This document shows positions 19,164-45,338 of a DNA stretch of 46,019 bases, piece by piece. Source of the DNA: Actinomycetes bacterium. Lineage in GTDB: Bacteria > Actinomycetota > Actinomycetes > Nanopelagicales > Nanopelagicaceae. Where the stretch lies: the NCBI GenBank assembly GCA_025355665.1, contig JANXZF010000129.1, positions 1 to 46,019 of the forward strand, written 5' to 3'. The notes below the pieces were generated by a model. The model worked only from the letters and a program-made list of their open reading frames with translations. It had not been told where the DNA came from and searched no databases. The stretch's first letter is position 1, and the number at the start of each line of letters is the position of its first letter. The translations under genes were made by a program, and so were the position numbers.

Positions 19164-19585
19164 TGTCGGCACGGAGCAAAGCCCGCAAGCAAGCCCTGGA
19201 TATTCTTTTTGAATCCGATATCCGGCAGTCCTCGCCGACGGAGCTTTTGCAATCTCGCTTGGAAGTTATTGAAGGACCAGAGGCTCGCCCGATTCGCGAA
19301 TACGCGAAGGAGCTGGTCACTGGAGTAGTAGACCACCGCCGAAAGATCGACGAGCTTATTTCGACTTACGCCCAAGGCTGGGATATGGATCGCCTTCCGA
19401 TAGTCGATCGAAATATTCTTAGAATCGCTATTTTCGAGATTCTTTGGGCAAATGAGCTGCCTGACGCCGTTGCGATCGACGAAGCCTTAACAATGGCGGC
19501 GATGCTCTCGACAGAGGAATCTGCTGGCTACGTGCATGGGGTACTGGGGCGTATCTCCTCGATTAAGGGTGATTTAGCCCTGTAA
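19163..19585 (+). CDS. nusB: Transcription antitermination factor NusB
   Basis: A 140-residue all-helical protein that binds the boxA element of rRNA leaders with NusE (S10). Signatures are SKARKQALDILFESDIR at the start, LVTGVVDHRRKIDELIS in the middle and LPIVDRNILRIAIFEIL with VAIDEALTMAAMLSTEESAGYVHGVLGRI at the end. It starts at GTG 19163, overlapping the efp stop by one base. Its 3' end overlaps the convergent bldD gene by 23 bp. Confidence 0.95.
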   Translation: MSARSKARKQALDILFESDIRQSSPTELLQSRLEVIEGPEARPIREYAKELVTGVVDHRRKIDELISTYAQGWDMDRLPIVDRNILRIAIFEILWANELPDAVAIDEALTMAAMLSTEESAGYVHGVLGRISSIKGDLAL

Positions 19586-20069
19586 GCAAAAGTTTCATCG
19601 TGATTAGGGATTGTTTTACGTCCTCTTCGGGCTTCATGGTCATCAGCGAAAGCGTGGAGAGGTCGCTCTGGCGAAGACTCATGACTTCGCAGTTCCAATC
19701 TCCTCGCCTATGTGCGATGGAAGCAATGAGCGTTGTCACAGCGATCAATGCGGCATCGCCCCGAGCGTTCAGATTCTTAGATAGCGCCTTCATCCTTCGC
19801 AGATCAATTACAAGGGGTGTTGCCTGCTCAGGACCGTCACTCCTTTTGGCCTGACCCAACAGGTGGGTGATTGGGACCTCAAAGAATGTTGCGATCTCGA
19901 CGAGTTTGCGCAGGCTTATCGCGCGATCGCATCGCTCGTAGGAACCCAGAGCCACGGCCGATATCGATCCCTTCGATAAGGATTCCACTTCTGCAAGTGA
20001 CCAGCCTCGAGCCTTGCGCAGGGCTCGAATCTGGCGCGAGATGATTTCTTGGGTCGGGTCGGTTTTCAT
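19563..20069 (-). CDS. bldD: BldD-like transcriptional regulator with intact c-di-GMP-binding signature
   Basis: A 168-residue protein. The N-terminal XRE-type helix-turn-helix (about residues 9-70) contains LGSYERCDRAISLRKLVEIA, closely matching the GSYERGDRA segment of Streptomyces BldD. The C-terminal domain keeps the c-di-GMP signature RxD-X8-RxxD: Arg122-Gly-Asp124, eight residues, then Arg133-Gln-Ser-Asp136. In Streptomyces, BldD dimerises on tetrameric c-di-GMP to repress development genes. The position between nusB and pyrR is the same as in Streptomyces. A TAGGCT -10 lies 6 nt before the ATG, so the mRNA is probably leaderless. Target genes here are unknown. Confidence 0.92.
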   Translation of the reverse strand: MKTDPTQEIISRQIRALRKARGWSLAEVESLSKGSISAVALGSYERCDRAISLRKLVEIATFFEVPITHLLGQAKRSDGPEQATPLVIDLRRMKALSKNLNARGDAALIAVTTLIASIAHRRGDWNCEVMSLRQSDLSTLSLMTMKPEEDVKQSLITMKLLLTGLNHP

Positions 20070-29191: not shown

Positions 29192-29893
29192 ATGACGAAG
29201 AGAGCCCCGATATTTCTTGCCATTGATTGTGATGATCTTGAGGTTGCATTGTCGTGGGTTAAAGCCACTCAGAATTCCGTCTATGGTTTCAAAATGGGGC
29301 TCGAATTCTTCGCAACTTTTGGCAGTGAAGGAGTCAGGCGAATTACCGATCTCACTGACGCTGAGTTATTTCTAGATTTGAAACTTCACGATATTCCCAA
29401 CACTGTATCTGCTGCGACTCGCGCTGTTTCTGATCTCAAGCCTCGTTTTCTAACGGTCCATGCCGCGGGTGGGGCGGCAATGGTTCGGGCCGCCGCAAGC
29501 GCCGGACCCAATATAGATATTGCTGCCGTGACGATTCTGACTTCGCTTAGCTCGACGGATTTGAGTGATATTGGCTTCAAATCCAACCCTCTTGAATCAG
29601 CGGTTCGGTTGGCCCAATTAGCCGTATCAGCAGGGGCGAGGGCAATCATTTGTTCACCGCTTGAGATTTCTGCCATAAGAACCGCGGTTGGTGCAGATGT
29701 TTCAATCATTACCCCAGGTGTTAGGCCCTCATCATCGGGCAGTGATGATCAGCAACGAACGATGGACCCAAAAAGCGCAATATCTGAGGGTGCAAACTAC
29801 TTAGTGATGGGGCGCCCCATTACGAGCGCATGGACCGAAGGCTTTAGTGCCTTACAAGACCGAGCAGCCACAATTGCGGCTGAACTTATCTAA
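29192..29893 (+). CDS. pyrF: Orotidine-5'-phosphate decarboxylase, type 1 (short form)
   Basis: A 233-residue enzyme making UMP. The catalytic array DLKLHDIPNTV (Asp-x-Lys-x-x-x-Asp) and the C-terminal ITPGVRPSSSGSDDQQRTMDP and YLVMGRPITSA are typical of the short form. Streptomyces and mycobacteria carry the longer type 2 enzyme, so this is the alternative version. A purine-rich GAGAGAAGG ribosome-binding site precedes the ATG. Last gene of the pyr operon; pyrE is not in the window. Confidence 0.95.
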   Translation: MTKRAPIFLAIDCDDLEVALSWVKATQNSVYGFKMGLEFFATFGSEGVRRITDLTDAELFLDLKLHDIPNTVSAATRAVSDLKPRFLTVHAAGGAAMVRAAASAGPNIDIAAVTILTSLSSTDLSDIGFKSNPLESAVRLAQLAVSAGARAIICSPLEISAIRTAVGADVSIITPGVRPSSSGSDDQQRTMDPKSAISEGANYLVMGRPITSAWTEGFSALQDRAATIAAELI

Positions 29894-29908: not shown

Positions 29909-29914
29909 TAGATT
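29909..29914 (+). promoter_or_regulatory. -10 box of the mIHF-gmk fusion (probable leaderless start)
   Basis: TAGATT followed by six bases (ATCGCC) and the ATG at 29921. No ribosome-binding site is present in the 27 bp after pyrF. Transcription would start at the start codon. Confidence 0.55.
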
Positions 29915-29920
29915 ATCGCC

Positions 29921-30787
29921 ATGCCCGTTCCCCCCTCTTTAACTCCCGAACAACGCGCAGAGGCCCTGATAAAGGCGGCGCATTCTCGTAGGGCTCGGGC
30001 AGATGTAAAAGCAAGGGTGAAGTCCGGAGAGATGGGGATTTCGGATGTCTTAATCCTCGCGAAAACAGATGAACCTATCGCAAAAATGCGTGTCAGCGAG
30101 CTTCTTGAATCCCTTCCTGGCGTAGGCAAGATTCGAGCCGCGGCAATTATGGAACGGCTAGCTATTTCATCTCCGCGAAGAATCCAAGGGCTCGGAATTC
30201 ATCAACGTGCAGAGTTGATTTCTGAGTTCAAGCCGATCAATCATCGCGGAAGATTATTGGTCCTTTCAGGTCCTGGGGGAGTTGGCAAAAGCACGGTCGC
30301 TTCAAGTTTGCGTGCAGCAAGTAACAATTTTTGGGTAAGTGTCTCAGCGACAACGCGCCAACCCCGCAGTAACGAAAGAAACGGCGAAGATTACTTCTTC
30401 CTTACTGAAGAGGAATTCGATCACAGGATTTCAGAGGATGATTTCCTGGAATGGGCGCAGTTTGCCGGCGCGCGTTACGGAACCCCGCGAGAGGGAGTGG
30501 AACAAGCCCTGTCCCAAGGTAAGAATGTTCTGCTCGAGATTGACATAGATGGTGCACGACAGGTTCGCACGCATAGTAAAGAAGCGGTCCTTGTCTTCCT
30601 CGAGCCCCCTAGTTGGGAAGATTTGGTTTCCAGATTGGAAGGGCGAGGCTCTGATACTCCCGAACGTCGTGCCCAAAGGCTCGAATTGGCCGCGGATGAA
30701 CTAGCCGCAGCCAAGGAATTCGACGTAATCCTCGTAAATGACCGCGTCGAGAAGGTAGTCGAGGCACTGGTATCCTTAGCCACCTGA
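29921..30787 (+). CDS. gmk: Fusion of actinobacterial integration host factor (mIHF) and guanylate kinase
   Basis: One uninterrupted 288-residue frame. Residues 1-104 match mIHF/sIHF: LTPEQRAEALIKAA, the basic RRARADVKARVKSGE, and the helix-hairpin-helix SELLESLPGVGKIRAAAIM at about 59-77. Residues 109-288 are a full guanylate kinase: P-loop GPGGVGKS at 117-124, the GMP-binding region VSATTRQPRSNERNGEDYFF, ARYGTPREGV and LEIDIDGARQV. In Streptomyces and mycobacteria these are two neighbouring genes. The first part should bind DNA, the second should convert GMP to GDP. No good internal start for Gmk alone is seen; TTG 30215 is the only nearby candidate. rpoZ follows after 33 bp. Confidence 0.93.
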   Translation: MPVPPSLTPEQRAEALIKAAHSRRARADVKARVKSGEMGISDVLILAKTDEPIAKMRVSELLESLPGVGKIRAAAIMERLAISSPRRIQGLGIHQRAELISEFKPINHRGRLLVLSGPGGVGKSTVASSLRAASNNFWVSVSATTRQPRSNERNGEDYFFLTEEEFDHRISEDDFLEWAQFAGARYGTPREGVEQALSQGKNVLLEIDIDGARQVRTHSKEAVLVFLEPPSWEDLVSRLEGRGSDTPERRAQRLELAADELAAAKEFDVILVNDRVEKVVEALVSLAT

Positions 30788-30820: not shown

Positions 30821-31069
30821 ATGGACGGCATTACCAATCCACCGATTGACGAACTTTTGGATAAGAGCGGCTCCAAGTACAGCCTCGTCCTTTATGCGGC
30901 CAAGCGTGCCCGACAGATCAATGCGTATTACTCCCAATTAGGCGAGGGTCTCCTCGAATATGTAGGACCACTTGTAGAAACACACGTCCACGAGAAGCCA
31001 TTGTCGATTGCCCTGCGCGAAATCAACGAGGGCCTTTTGACGATCGAGAATCTCGAACCAACCGCTTAA
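30821..31069 (+). CDS. rpoZ: RNA polymerase omega subunit
   Basis: An 82-residue protein that supports assembly of the beta' subunit. [19 protein letters not shown] corresponds to the conserved omega core, and [20 protein letters not shown] to the C-terminal part. AAGGGG (30811-30816) 4-5 nt before the ATG is a good ribosome-binding site. The order gmk-rpoZ-coaBC-metK-priA is conserved in actinobacteria. Confidence 0.92.
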
Positions 31070-31086: not shown

Positions 31087-32286
31087 ATGTCTGCCTCGGG
31101 CCGAGAAGTTATTCTCGGTATTGGCGGAGGAATCGCGGCATATAAATCGTGTGACTTACTTAGGCGACTCCAGGAACATGGTTATCTCGTAACAGTTGTG
31201 CCGACCCCTGCCTCACTTAATTTTGTTGGATCCACTACGTGGGAAGCCTTATCGGGAAGAGCGGTGCTCACCGAAGTTTGGCAGGACGTGGCATCGGTCG
31301 CCCATATTAATTTGGCATCGAAAGCCGACTACATCATCGCTGCACCCGCGACCGCTGACCTCATCGCAAGAATGGCTCAAGGTCGCGCAGATGATCTGCT
31401 CACGAATGTTGTTTTGGCCAGCGGCGCACCGAAGTTAGTAGTGCCTGCAATGCACCCGCAAATGTGGCTTAACGAATCGACAGTTGCCAACGTAGAGATT
31501 CTAAGGACGCGTGGTTTCATTGTCATGGAGCCTGAGGTCGGACGCCTTACGGGAGGCGACGTTGGTCAAGGAAGATTTCCAGAAACGTCAAAGATCCTTG
31601 AACAATTTCAAGAGATCGCCGGGTGGAACGCCGATCTCCTGGGTCGCAGGATCCTTGTCACCGCCGGTGGAACTCGAGAGCCGATCGATCCTGTTCGATT
31701 CATTGGCAATCGTTCTTCGGGCAAGCAGGGTTATGCAGTCGCCCGTGCGGCGGTTGTAAGAGGTGCGCAAGTTCAACTAATCGCTGCGAATTGCGAACTG
31801 CCTGATATTGAGGGAGTGGAGATCACTCGTGTCGAAACGACATCGGAGATGGCCGAAGTGCTTGCTGAGAAATTCCCAGAGTGTGATGCATTGATCATGT
31901 GCGCGGCGGTTGCAGATGCGAAGCCTGTTCAAATAAGTCCGGAAAAGATTAAGAAGGATCAGTTAGAAAGCATTGCACTCGAACCCAATCCAGACCTATT
32001 GGCGGGCCTTTCAGCTTCGAAGAAGGTATCGCAAGTCCTGGTCGGCTTTGCCGCAGAAACGCAGGCCCATGCTGAAAATGCTGTAAAGAAATTGAAGGCA
32101 AAGAACTTGGATGTCCTCTATGTCAATGATGTCTCGGGGGGAGCGATATTCGGTAGTGATCAGACCCGCGGAACTATCATCTCAAAGGGTGGAGCAGACA
32201 TTGTGGTTTCCGAGGCCAGCAAAGACACGCTCGCAAACGTATTACTCGACCAGGTCAGTTTTAGGCTAAGTTTGCCCAATGTCTAA
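31087..32286 (+). CDS. coaBC: Bifunctional phosphopantothenoylcysteine decarboxylase / phosphopantothenate-cysteine ligase
   Basis: A 399-residue coenzyme A pathway enzyme. The N-terminal CoaC flavodomain shows [39 protein letters not shown] and PAMHPQMW, and needs FMN. The CoaB half starts near residue 185 with [25 protein letters not shown] and carries AAVADAKP and the LEPNPDLL region. It starts 17 nt after rpoZ and its last 8 bp overlap metK. Confidence 0.96.
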
Positions 32287-43781: not shown

Positions 43782-45338
43782 GTGGCGCGGAAAGCGAATC
43801 TCCGTCACGCTCTCTTTCTTCCTGCATTCGCGCTTCTAGGTGTCTTTGCATCATTGCTAACTCCGATGCAGAGTGCTTTTGCAGCAGGGGCGCCCACAGT
43901 GACGGGAGTTAGTCCAAATAGAGGATCCACAGCAGGTGGCACTTCCATAACCATTACCGGAACTGGATTCACCGGGACTATCACCGTGAGCGTTGGTGGC
44001 GCCTTAGCAACAAGTCCTATAGTCGTTAATGCCACAACCGCCACGGCCACGACGCCGGTCGGTACAGCCGGCGCCACAAACGTAGTTCTCACTCGAACGA
44101 GTGACAGCAAATCTGGAACGGGCACAGGGCTGTTCACGTATGGATACACCGTCACATACAACGCAAACAGTGCAACAAGCGGGACTGTTCCAAGCGATAC
44201 AACAGTTTACAACGCTTCGCAGAACGTGACGGTATTGGGAAATACCGGCTCACTTGCACGAGTTAATTATGCATTTGCAAATTGGAATACTGCGGCGAAT
44301 GGATCGGGTACGAGTTACTCAGGCGGTAATACGTTTGCAATTGCCGCCAATACAACGTTGTACGCCCAGTGGACTCCGACGTATACGGTTGTCTATAACG
44401 GAAATACGAATACTGGGGGTACCGTCCCTACGGACACGTCAAGTCCGTATGTCAGCGGTGGGACGGTCACTGTTCTGAGCAATACTGGATCATTGGTCAA
44501 AACGGGAAGCACATTCAATAATTGGAATACTGCGGCAAATGGCTCCGGAACTTCATATGCACCTTCAAACACTTTCAGTATTGGGTCCAACACTGTCTTA
44601 TACGCGCAATGGAGAGCAACACTCACGTACGGTGCAAACGGCGCCGACGGTGGAACGGTACCGGTTGATGCATCCAGTCCCTATCGAACCGGAACCACTG
44701 TCACCGTTTTAGGCAACACTGGATCACTCGTGAAGACCGGAAGTATTTTCGATGGGTGGAACACGGTAGATGATGGTTCTGGAATTACCTACCACCCGTC
44801 CAATACTTTCACCATCAACGCCACAACAGTTCTCTACGCGCTTTGGGCAAGCAACGCCTATGCAGTCACATATAATTCAAATGGCGCCACCAGTGGATCC
44901 TCTCCCGTTGATGCCGAGAGTCCCTTTGTCGGTGGAAGTTCCGTCACGATTGTGGCAAATTCTGGCAATTTGGTTAAATCGGATTATGCCTTTTCAGGTT
45001 GGAATACTGCAATTGACGGGTCTGGGACAACCTTTGATGCATCAGGATCGGACACTTTCACTATCGCCTCAGATACGACTTTCTACTCACTATGGCTGCG
45101 GAATCATTCGGTTACCTTTAACTCGAATGGTGGCTTAGGCTCGATGAGTATCCAGATTTCGGCGGCTCCGACAGGTCTGTCATTAAGTGCATTTACAAGG
45201 GTTGGATATTTGTTTAGCGGATGGAACACCGCATCAAATAGAACTGGAAACGCATATGCAGACGGTGCGACTTTCAGTTTTGCAGGCGACATAACCTTGT
45301 ATGCCCAATGGACCCTTCAGGTTCAACCATCTTCGTAA
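43782..45338 (+). CDS. Secreted IPT/TIG and InlB-repeat surface protein, cut short by an in-frame TAA
   Basis: A 518-residue product. It has a long Sec signal peptide with likely cleavage after AFA near residue 34 (MQSAFA-AGAP), an IPT/TIG Ig-like domain at about 36-120 (PTVTGVSPNRGSTAGGTSITITG), then five InlB B-repeats of about 68-79 residues (122-197, 201-277, 280-355, 360-438, 443-510), each ending in a LYAQW-like motif. Such proteins are extracellular and probably adhesive. GTG start with AAGGGG (43770-43775) 6 nt upstream. The frame after the TAA at 45336-45338 stays open for 227 codons to the window edge, with sequence that continues this kind of protein, so the stop is probably a nonsense mutation, a readthrough site or a sequence error. 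No membrane anchor is present before it. Confidence 0.85.
   Translation: MARKANLRHALFLPAFALLGVFASLLTPMQSAFAAGAPTVTGVSPNRGSTAGGTSITITGTGFTGTITVSVGGALATSPIVVNATTATATTPVGTAGATNVVLTRTSDSKSGTGTGLFTYGYTVTYNANSATSGTVPSDTTVYNASQNVTVLGNTGSLARVNYAFANWNTAANGSGTSYSGGNTFAIAANTTLYAQWTPTYTVVYNGNTNTGGTVPTDTSSPYVSGGTVTVLSNTGSLVKTGSTFNNWNTAANGSGTSYAPSNTFSIGSNTVLYAQWRATLTYGANGADGGTVPVDASSPYRTGTTVTVLGNTGSLVKTGSIFDGWNTVDDGSGITYHPSNTFTINATTVLYALWASNAYAVTYNSNGATSGSSPVDAESPFVGGSSVTIVANSGNLVKSDYAFSGWNTAIDGSGTTFDASGSDTFTIASDTTFYSLWLRNHSVTFNSNGGLGSMSIQISAAPTGLSLSAFTRVGYLFSGWNTASNRTGNAYADGATFSFAGDITLYAQWTLQVQPSS
44145..45311 (+). repeat. Five tandem InlB B-repeats (coding)
   Basis: Five degenerate units of about 205-240 bp. 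Each encodes a TVTYN-like strand, a GNTGSLVK-like strand, a GWNTAANGSGTSY-like strand and LYAQW. At DNA level AATTGGAATACTGCGGC is shared exactly by units 1 and 2, while unit 5 is the most diverged. Recombination between units could change repeat number. Confidence 0.85.

Follow-up and report, generated by a model that had tools for sequence, protein, structure and literature searches.

A single open reading frame joins the nucleoid-associated protein mIHF to guanylate kinase in actinobacteria

The window analysed here (the whole stretch of DNA, 46,019 nucleotides in length) comes from a freshwater actinobacterium of the family Nanopelagicaceae and carries a gene in which a DNA-binding domain of the mIHF/sIHF type is continued in frame by guanylate kinase (Gmk). 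The features needed to follow the argument are listed below, together with a (p)ppGpp synthetase gene located in the same window.

29192-29893 (+), pyrF, the upstream neighbour, a conserved context found around most fused and separate loci
29909-29914 (+), TAGATT, a -10-like element six bases before the ATG, of which the form TANNNT is conserved in the two closest genera
29921-30787 (+), the mIHF-Gmk fusion gene, a single open reading frame of 288 aa from ATG to TGA, uninterrupted in relatives
29933-30232 (+), mIHF/sIHF domain with an S13-like H2TH fold, residues 5-104 (NF041260, 128 bits; 131 bits at these bases; matches to 4itq and 6tob)
30215-30217 (+), in-frame TTG at Leu99, lacking a Shine-Dalgarno-like sequence; rejected as an internal Gmk start
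30233-30247 (+), linker PINHR, residues 105-109, differing among species in length and sequence according to the alignment; the pLDDT drops to as low as 77 over residues 101-110
30248-30778 (+), guanylate kinase domain, residues 110-286 (TIGR03263, 223 bits; PDB 1znw by both sequence and fold)
30257-30259 (+), in-frame TTG at Leu113, within the first Gmk strand, unconserved; rejected as a start
30269-30295 (+), P-loop GPGGVGKST, residues 117-125 (G117, P118, V121, G122 and K123 invariant and T125 nearly so in 36 fused proteins)
30821-31069 (+), rpoZ (RNA polymerase omega), downstream neighbour in conserved context
31087-32286 (+), coaBC, downstream neighbour in conserved context
36-1844, RelA/SpoT-type (p)ppGpp synthetase, apparently truncated at its start by the edge of the contig; no other was found in the genome

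Two other genes of the window are worth recording. A 518-aa protein encoded at 43782-45338 has an IPT/TIG domain and four Listeria-Bacteroides repeats; it is likely a surface or adhesion protein and is unusual beside housekeeping genes. At 19563-20069 (-) there is a small regulator that combines a helix-turn-helix with a BldD-like C-terminal domain and whose neighbours lie on the opposite strand.

A sequence-only reading of this DNA had described a fusion at 29921-30787, in one frame without a stop and consisting of two complete domains. The coordinates, the strand, the frame and the description were all exact, and the number of internal stops in this frame is 0. The completeness of the domains is borne out by the domain models, both of which score far above their curated cut-offs. 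The NCBIfam model actino_IHF (NF041260) matches over its full length at residues 5-104, i.e. over profile positions 3-102 of 102, with 128 bits against a cut-off of 60, and Pfam H2TH_5 is found at residues 33-103; the solved relatives matched are SCO1480/sIHF (4itq) and mIHF (6tob). The model guanyl_kin (TIGR03263) matches residues 110-286 with 223 bits against a cut-off of 160, over profile positions 1-177 of 180, and Pfam Guanylate_kin covers residues 110-284. The top fold match of this domain is the Gmk of M. tuberculosis (1znw). Actinobacterial IHF is described as a free-standing protein of ~105 aa, whereas the domain in question shares one frame with Gmk. We note that NF041260 is a model of the type 'equivalog_domain', so that the fusion is compatible with membership of the domain.

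The conservation of individual residues points in the same direction for the kinase. An alignment of 36 fused proteins shows no variation in the P-loop core or at S142, R146, R149, Y158, E177, Y186, E206, R242 and R253. The last two are the lid arginines, which correspond by alignment to Arg155 and Arg166 of M. tuberculosis Gmk, residues that stabilise phosphoryl transfer (PMC5686395). Conversion of GMP to GDP is expected of the Gmk domain, since this step is essential and the source genome has one Gmk-like place.

The source genome contains one NF041260 match above the cut-off (131 bits), the next one reaching 14 bits, which is below the cut-off. There is a single place that matches the fused protein, and it is also the sole Gmk-like place; no second free mIHF or Gmk was found elsewhere in this genome by a genome-wide profile and protein search. 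One HU-type protein is present. The sole mIHF and the sole Gmk of the cell would be physically tied, both being encoded as one chain.

The source assembly is split into 138 contigs, and a stop codon could in principle have been removed by a sequencing or assembly error. A search across the order argues strongly against this; it covered 296 genomes, all of one family, and named records in the same group are Candidatus Planktophila and other Nanopelagicaceae. In the closest genus the frame is uninterrupted in matches of 92% down to 65% identity, and the check for a missed stop or frameshift came out in favour of the fusion, with relatives at 92%, 83%, 74% and lower identity having the same uninterrupted frame. 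Since close relatives share this frame, a base-calling error or chance is excluded. The number of independent genomes with a stop-free frame is well above 100, and several of these are single contigs; one fused genome of the Microbacteriaceae sample consists of one contig, 927,303 bases long. The conservation of the stop-free frame refutes an artefact for the clade, and its probability at the present locus is negligible.

The gene order pyrF-[mihF-gmk]-rpoZ-coaBC is shared by fused and separate genomes, with pyrF upstream in most of them. In relatives with separate genes the gmk start abuts or overlaps the mihF stop (TAATGA, ATGA overlaps), and in genus g7 and a part of g8 the two open reading frames lie in one frame with a lone TAG or TAA between them, as in AAG GGA AGG TAG ATG CAA GGT CGA. 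Tsukamurella has two annotated genes, mihF and gmk. As the separate genes overlap or share a frame with a single stop between them, the fusion can be understood as the loss of a stop codon within a conserved gene pair.

Loci were sorted into fused and separate by whether both domains lie inside one stop-free frame. Within Nanopelagicaceae the fusion was found in 11 of 17 genera (g1-g4, g9-g13, g16 and g17), and mihF and gmk are separate in g5-g8, g14 and g15. Across the class, 395 genomes from 137 genera were sampled; apart from Nanopelagicaceae, the only ones with stop-free fusions were in Microbacteriaceae (f36; the best named match is Microbacterium sp. NIBRBAC000506063) and in one genus (g103) of family f34. 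Microbacteriaceae were represented by 90 genomes of 78 genera, of which about 85 have the fusion and five have Gmk alone. No further fusions appeared in a phylum-wide sample (129 genomes, 103 genera), whose non-fused members have mihF and gmk as separate neighbours. The earlier statement that these are separate genes elsewhere in actinobacteria therefore holds for most families but fails for Microbacteriaceae, where nearly all sampled genomes are fused. The loci L192 and L195 are fused. Genome G756 had been a candidate for an extra fusion, with one 461-aa 'open frame' for both domains, but its DNA shows a stop between them and the genes are thus separate. Interior 'stops' were flagged in some Microbacteriaceae; the one that was individually resolved (G515) arose because the match overran the gene's own end, as the gene is stop-free in another reading.

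A tree built from Gmk, CoaBC, PyrF and RpoZ requires 4 changes between the fused and the separate state. A single origin within Nanopelagicaceae is not rejected by the AU test (p-AU 0.40), and so at least three independent fusions is the safe count. Judged from these sequences, the fusion is real and old, and arose at least three times.

Some genomes appear to have lost the partner domain. In one Microbacteriaceae genome (L229, G712) the Gmk without an mIHF domain is preceded by an Ala-, Pro- and Thr-rich stretch, and other Gmk-only members of the family, e.g. L227, have a bare Gmk; the mIHF domain seems to have been lost after fusion in these cases. At L210 and in genomes of two genera of f34 (g67 and g114) gmk is present (at L210 after pyrF) and no mIHF was detectable anywhere by protein search, an apparent loss of mIHF in some actinobacteria.

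The upstream region of the fused gene is conserved as well. Of 49 loci in the two closest genera, 46 have a TANNNT motif ending 4-9 nt before the start, as compared to 5.6 expected from shuffles, and in the same genera there is little or no Shine-Dalgarno signal before the fused start. A standard scan for two-box sigma-70 promoters did not detect the TAGATT element. This layout suggests a leaderless transcript of the fused gene. The same layout precedes mihF in the separate genera g6 and g14, which is why a promoter of the mihF type would now drive Gmk.

The single open reading frame might nevertheless yield separate proteins, through an internal start or through proteolysis of the linker. The ancestral start of gmk once sat at the linker, and in genus g11 the linker holds an in-frame ATG behind a strong Shine-Dalgarno-like sequence (AAGGGGAGCTTGCTATG, L111); g9 also has start-like codons with a Shine-Dalgarno-like sequence, a weaker case than g11. 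The window copy is different in this respect: there are just two TTG codons, neither of them conserved or preceded by a Shine-Dalgarno-like sequence, and the claim that a good internal start is absent stands. In g1, the genus of the window, the frequency of ATG or GTG with a Shine-Dalgarno-like sequence is 0.11, no higher than the 0.13 of control stretches. We therefore rejected an internal start in the window copy, such a start being possible only in g9 and g11. Separate products are altogether unlikely, and accumulation of the full-length chain is predicted from the sequence. We note that at L111 and L117 (both g11) a second, Gmk-only product could arise from the internal ATG.

The conserved core of the mIHF domain is kept in the fusion. 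R23, R26, K30, G69, R86, R87, G90, G92 and Q95, which make up the basic helix and the H2TH core, are all present in the window protein, and the same residues are at 92-100% in fused Nanopelagicaceae. R23, R26, G69, I82, R86, G90 and G92 are retained by every fused Nanopelagicaceae examined. The domain is also strongly basic, with a mean pI of 10.2-11.4 across the fused Nanopelagicaceae genera. With the core and the basic charge kept, it is plausible that the domain still binds DNA. Relative to Gmk, mIHF evolves faster in the fused clades (ratio 1.5-1.8) than in the separate ones (1.05-1.4). At position 89 most separate mIHFs outside Nanopelagicaceae have Arg, whereas nearly all fused ones carry Gln, Ala or Gly; the window protein has Gln. 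The faster evolution means that the function of mIHF may be relaxed or altered, although the shifts in rate and at position 89 are only suggestive, because the groups are few and related.

Taken to the extreme, the faster evolution would make the mIHF part a decaying remnant that has lost its role, so that the protein is effectively just a Gmk; the Microbacteriaceae genes that encode Gmk without the mIHF domain could be read in the same way. However, a decaying domain would hardly keep its basic charge and its almost invariant core residues, the domain model is matched over its full length, the predicted fold is confident, and the genome has no second mIHF as a substitute. We consider this explanation very improbable.

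The linker varies from ~5 to >20 residues among the aligned fused proteins, and its sequence is also variable. An AlphaFold model of the fusion has a mean pLDDT of 93.9 and a pTM of 0.66 with a dip at the linker; two confident domains without a fixed mutual placement are predicted. These data bear on the possibility that the fusion is a regulatory device, i.e. that GMP, GDP/GTP or (p)ppGpp bound to Gmk alters the DNA binding of mIHF, or that DNA alters the kinase; the first of these was also proposed in the sequence-only reading. At least three independent origins followed by long retention would suit such a device, as would the one Rel (p)ppGpp synthetase gene of the genome, which lies inside the same window. 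(p)ppGpp inhibits Gmk in several phyla, dimer contacts being decisive, and the inhibition varies between phyla (PMC6783271). Yet the linker is conserved neither in length nor in sequence, the predicted structure gives no fixed placement of the domains, and there is no conservation of an interface that would point there. Moreover, M. tuberculosis Gmk is reported to be insensitive to (p)ppGpp, in work mentioned in a passage of PMC5686395, and sensitivity is therefore not to be taken for granted within the phylum. A regulatory role of this kind is improbable, and a nucleotide-sensing switch is not needed to explain the data. A related idea starts from the fact that some bacterial Gmk enzymes are dimers (PMC6783271). 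Through Gmk dimerisation a DNA bender that is otherwise monomeric might become a two-headed DNA-bridging protein, with guanine nucleotides setting the assembly or the lid state, so that compaction senses GMP/GTP or (p)ppGpp. This is quite improbable.

We consider it likely that the gene encodes a functional two-domain protein that originated by stop loss between adjacent, often overlapping mihF and gmk genes. As a nucleoid protein, the N-terminal domain would keep binding and bending DNA, the C-terminal domain would be an ordinary essential Gmk, and the flexible linker would let either domain work alone. The dosage of mIHF and Gmk would be fixed at 1:1, under the promoter and start of mIHF. 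If the mIHF domain still binds DNA it follows that the kinase is on the nucleoid, where the Gmk pool would spend its time. A bulky C-terminal partner on mIHF is tolerated in M. smegmatis, because mIHF carrying EGFP or a HaloTag can stand in for the native protein, which is essential there, with near-normal growth (PMC10028186). Given this tolerance, a fusion would be easily accepted, with the dosage fixed one to one. Mycobacterial mIHF is essential, deleting it has polar effects on gmk and rpoZ, and in M. tuberculosis it ranks with the ten most abundant proteins (PMC6155035). An equal abundance of Gmk would be a possible cost, which we counted against a functional fusion.

The two halves can be compared with known proteins. 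Like mIHF (Rv1388) of M. tuberculosis and sIHF (SCO1480) of S. coelicolor, the mIHF domain of the window is a full-length domain match, is basic, is present in single copy and is located before gmk-rpoZ; unlike these free proteins of ~105 aa it is covalently continued by Gmk. The kinase resembles bacterial Gmk of the Rv1389 type in its full-length domain, its P-loop, its GMP-site and lid residues and its top fold match, and differs in being preceded by a DNA-binding domain at the N-terminus and in lacking its own start. The fused 'gmk' of Microbacteriaceae, exemplified by WP_223172673.1 of Microbacterium sp. NIBRBAC000506063, has the same domains in the same order within one CDS. This CDS has 897 bases, lies beside pyrF and rpoZ and is annotated in RefSeq just as 'gmk, guanylate kinase'. 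In contrast to the window gene it has a different linker and the P-loop GPTAVGKGT instead of GPGGVGKST, and the tree assigns the two an independent origin. A Microbacterium record labelled as a 'plasmid', NZ_CP072877.1 (L211), carries pyrF (two CDS), gmk, rpoZ, metK and priA, and two Fic-family genes separate gmk from rpoZ; given these housekeeping genes it is likely a mislabelled piece of chromosome.

No description of an mIHF/sIHF-guanylate kinase fusion was found in the open literature, subscription papers lying outside the search. Both halves and their adjacency are known; what is new, as far as we can tell, is a widespread, repeatedly evolved and undescribed fusion. Surveys of mIHF by gene name or by length would miss it, because the plain annotation 'guanylate kinase' hides a nucleoid protein. 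The repeated origin also provides a natural experiment, with fused and unfused versions of the pair available for comparison inside one family. Most members of two bacterial families apparently have no free mIHF, their sole mIHF being joined to an essential enzyme in the synthesis of GTP. Provided that both halves work, the levels of the nucleoid protein and of Gmk would not be separately adjustable in these bacteria, and Gmk would ride on the chromosome.
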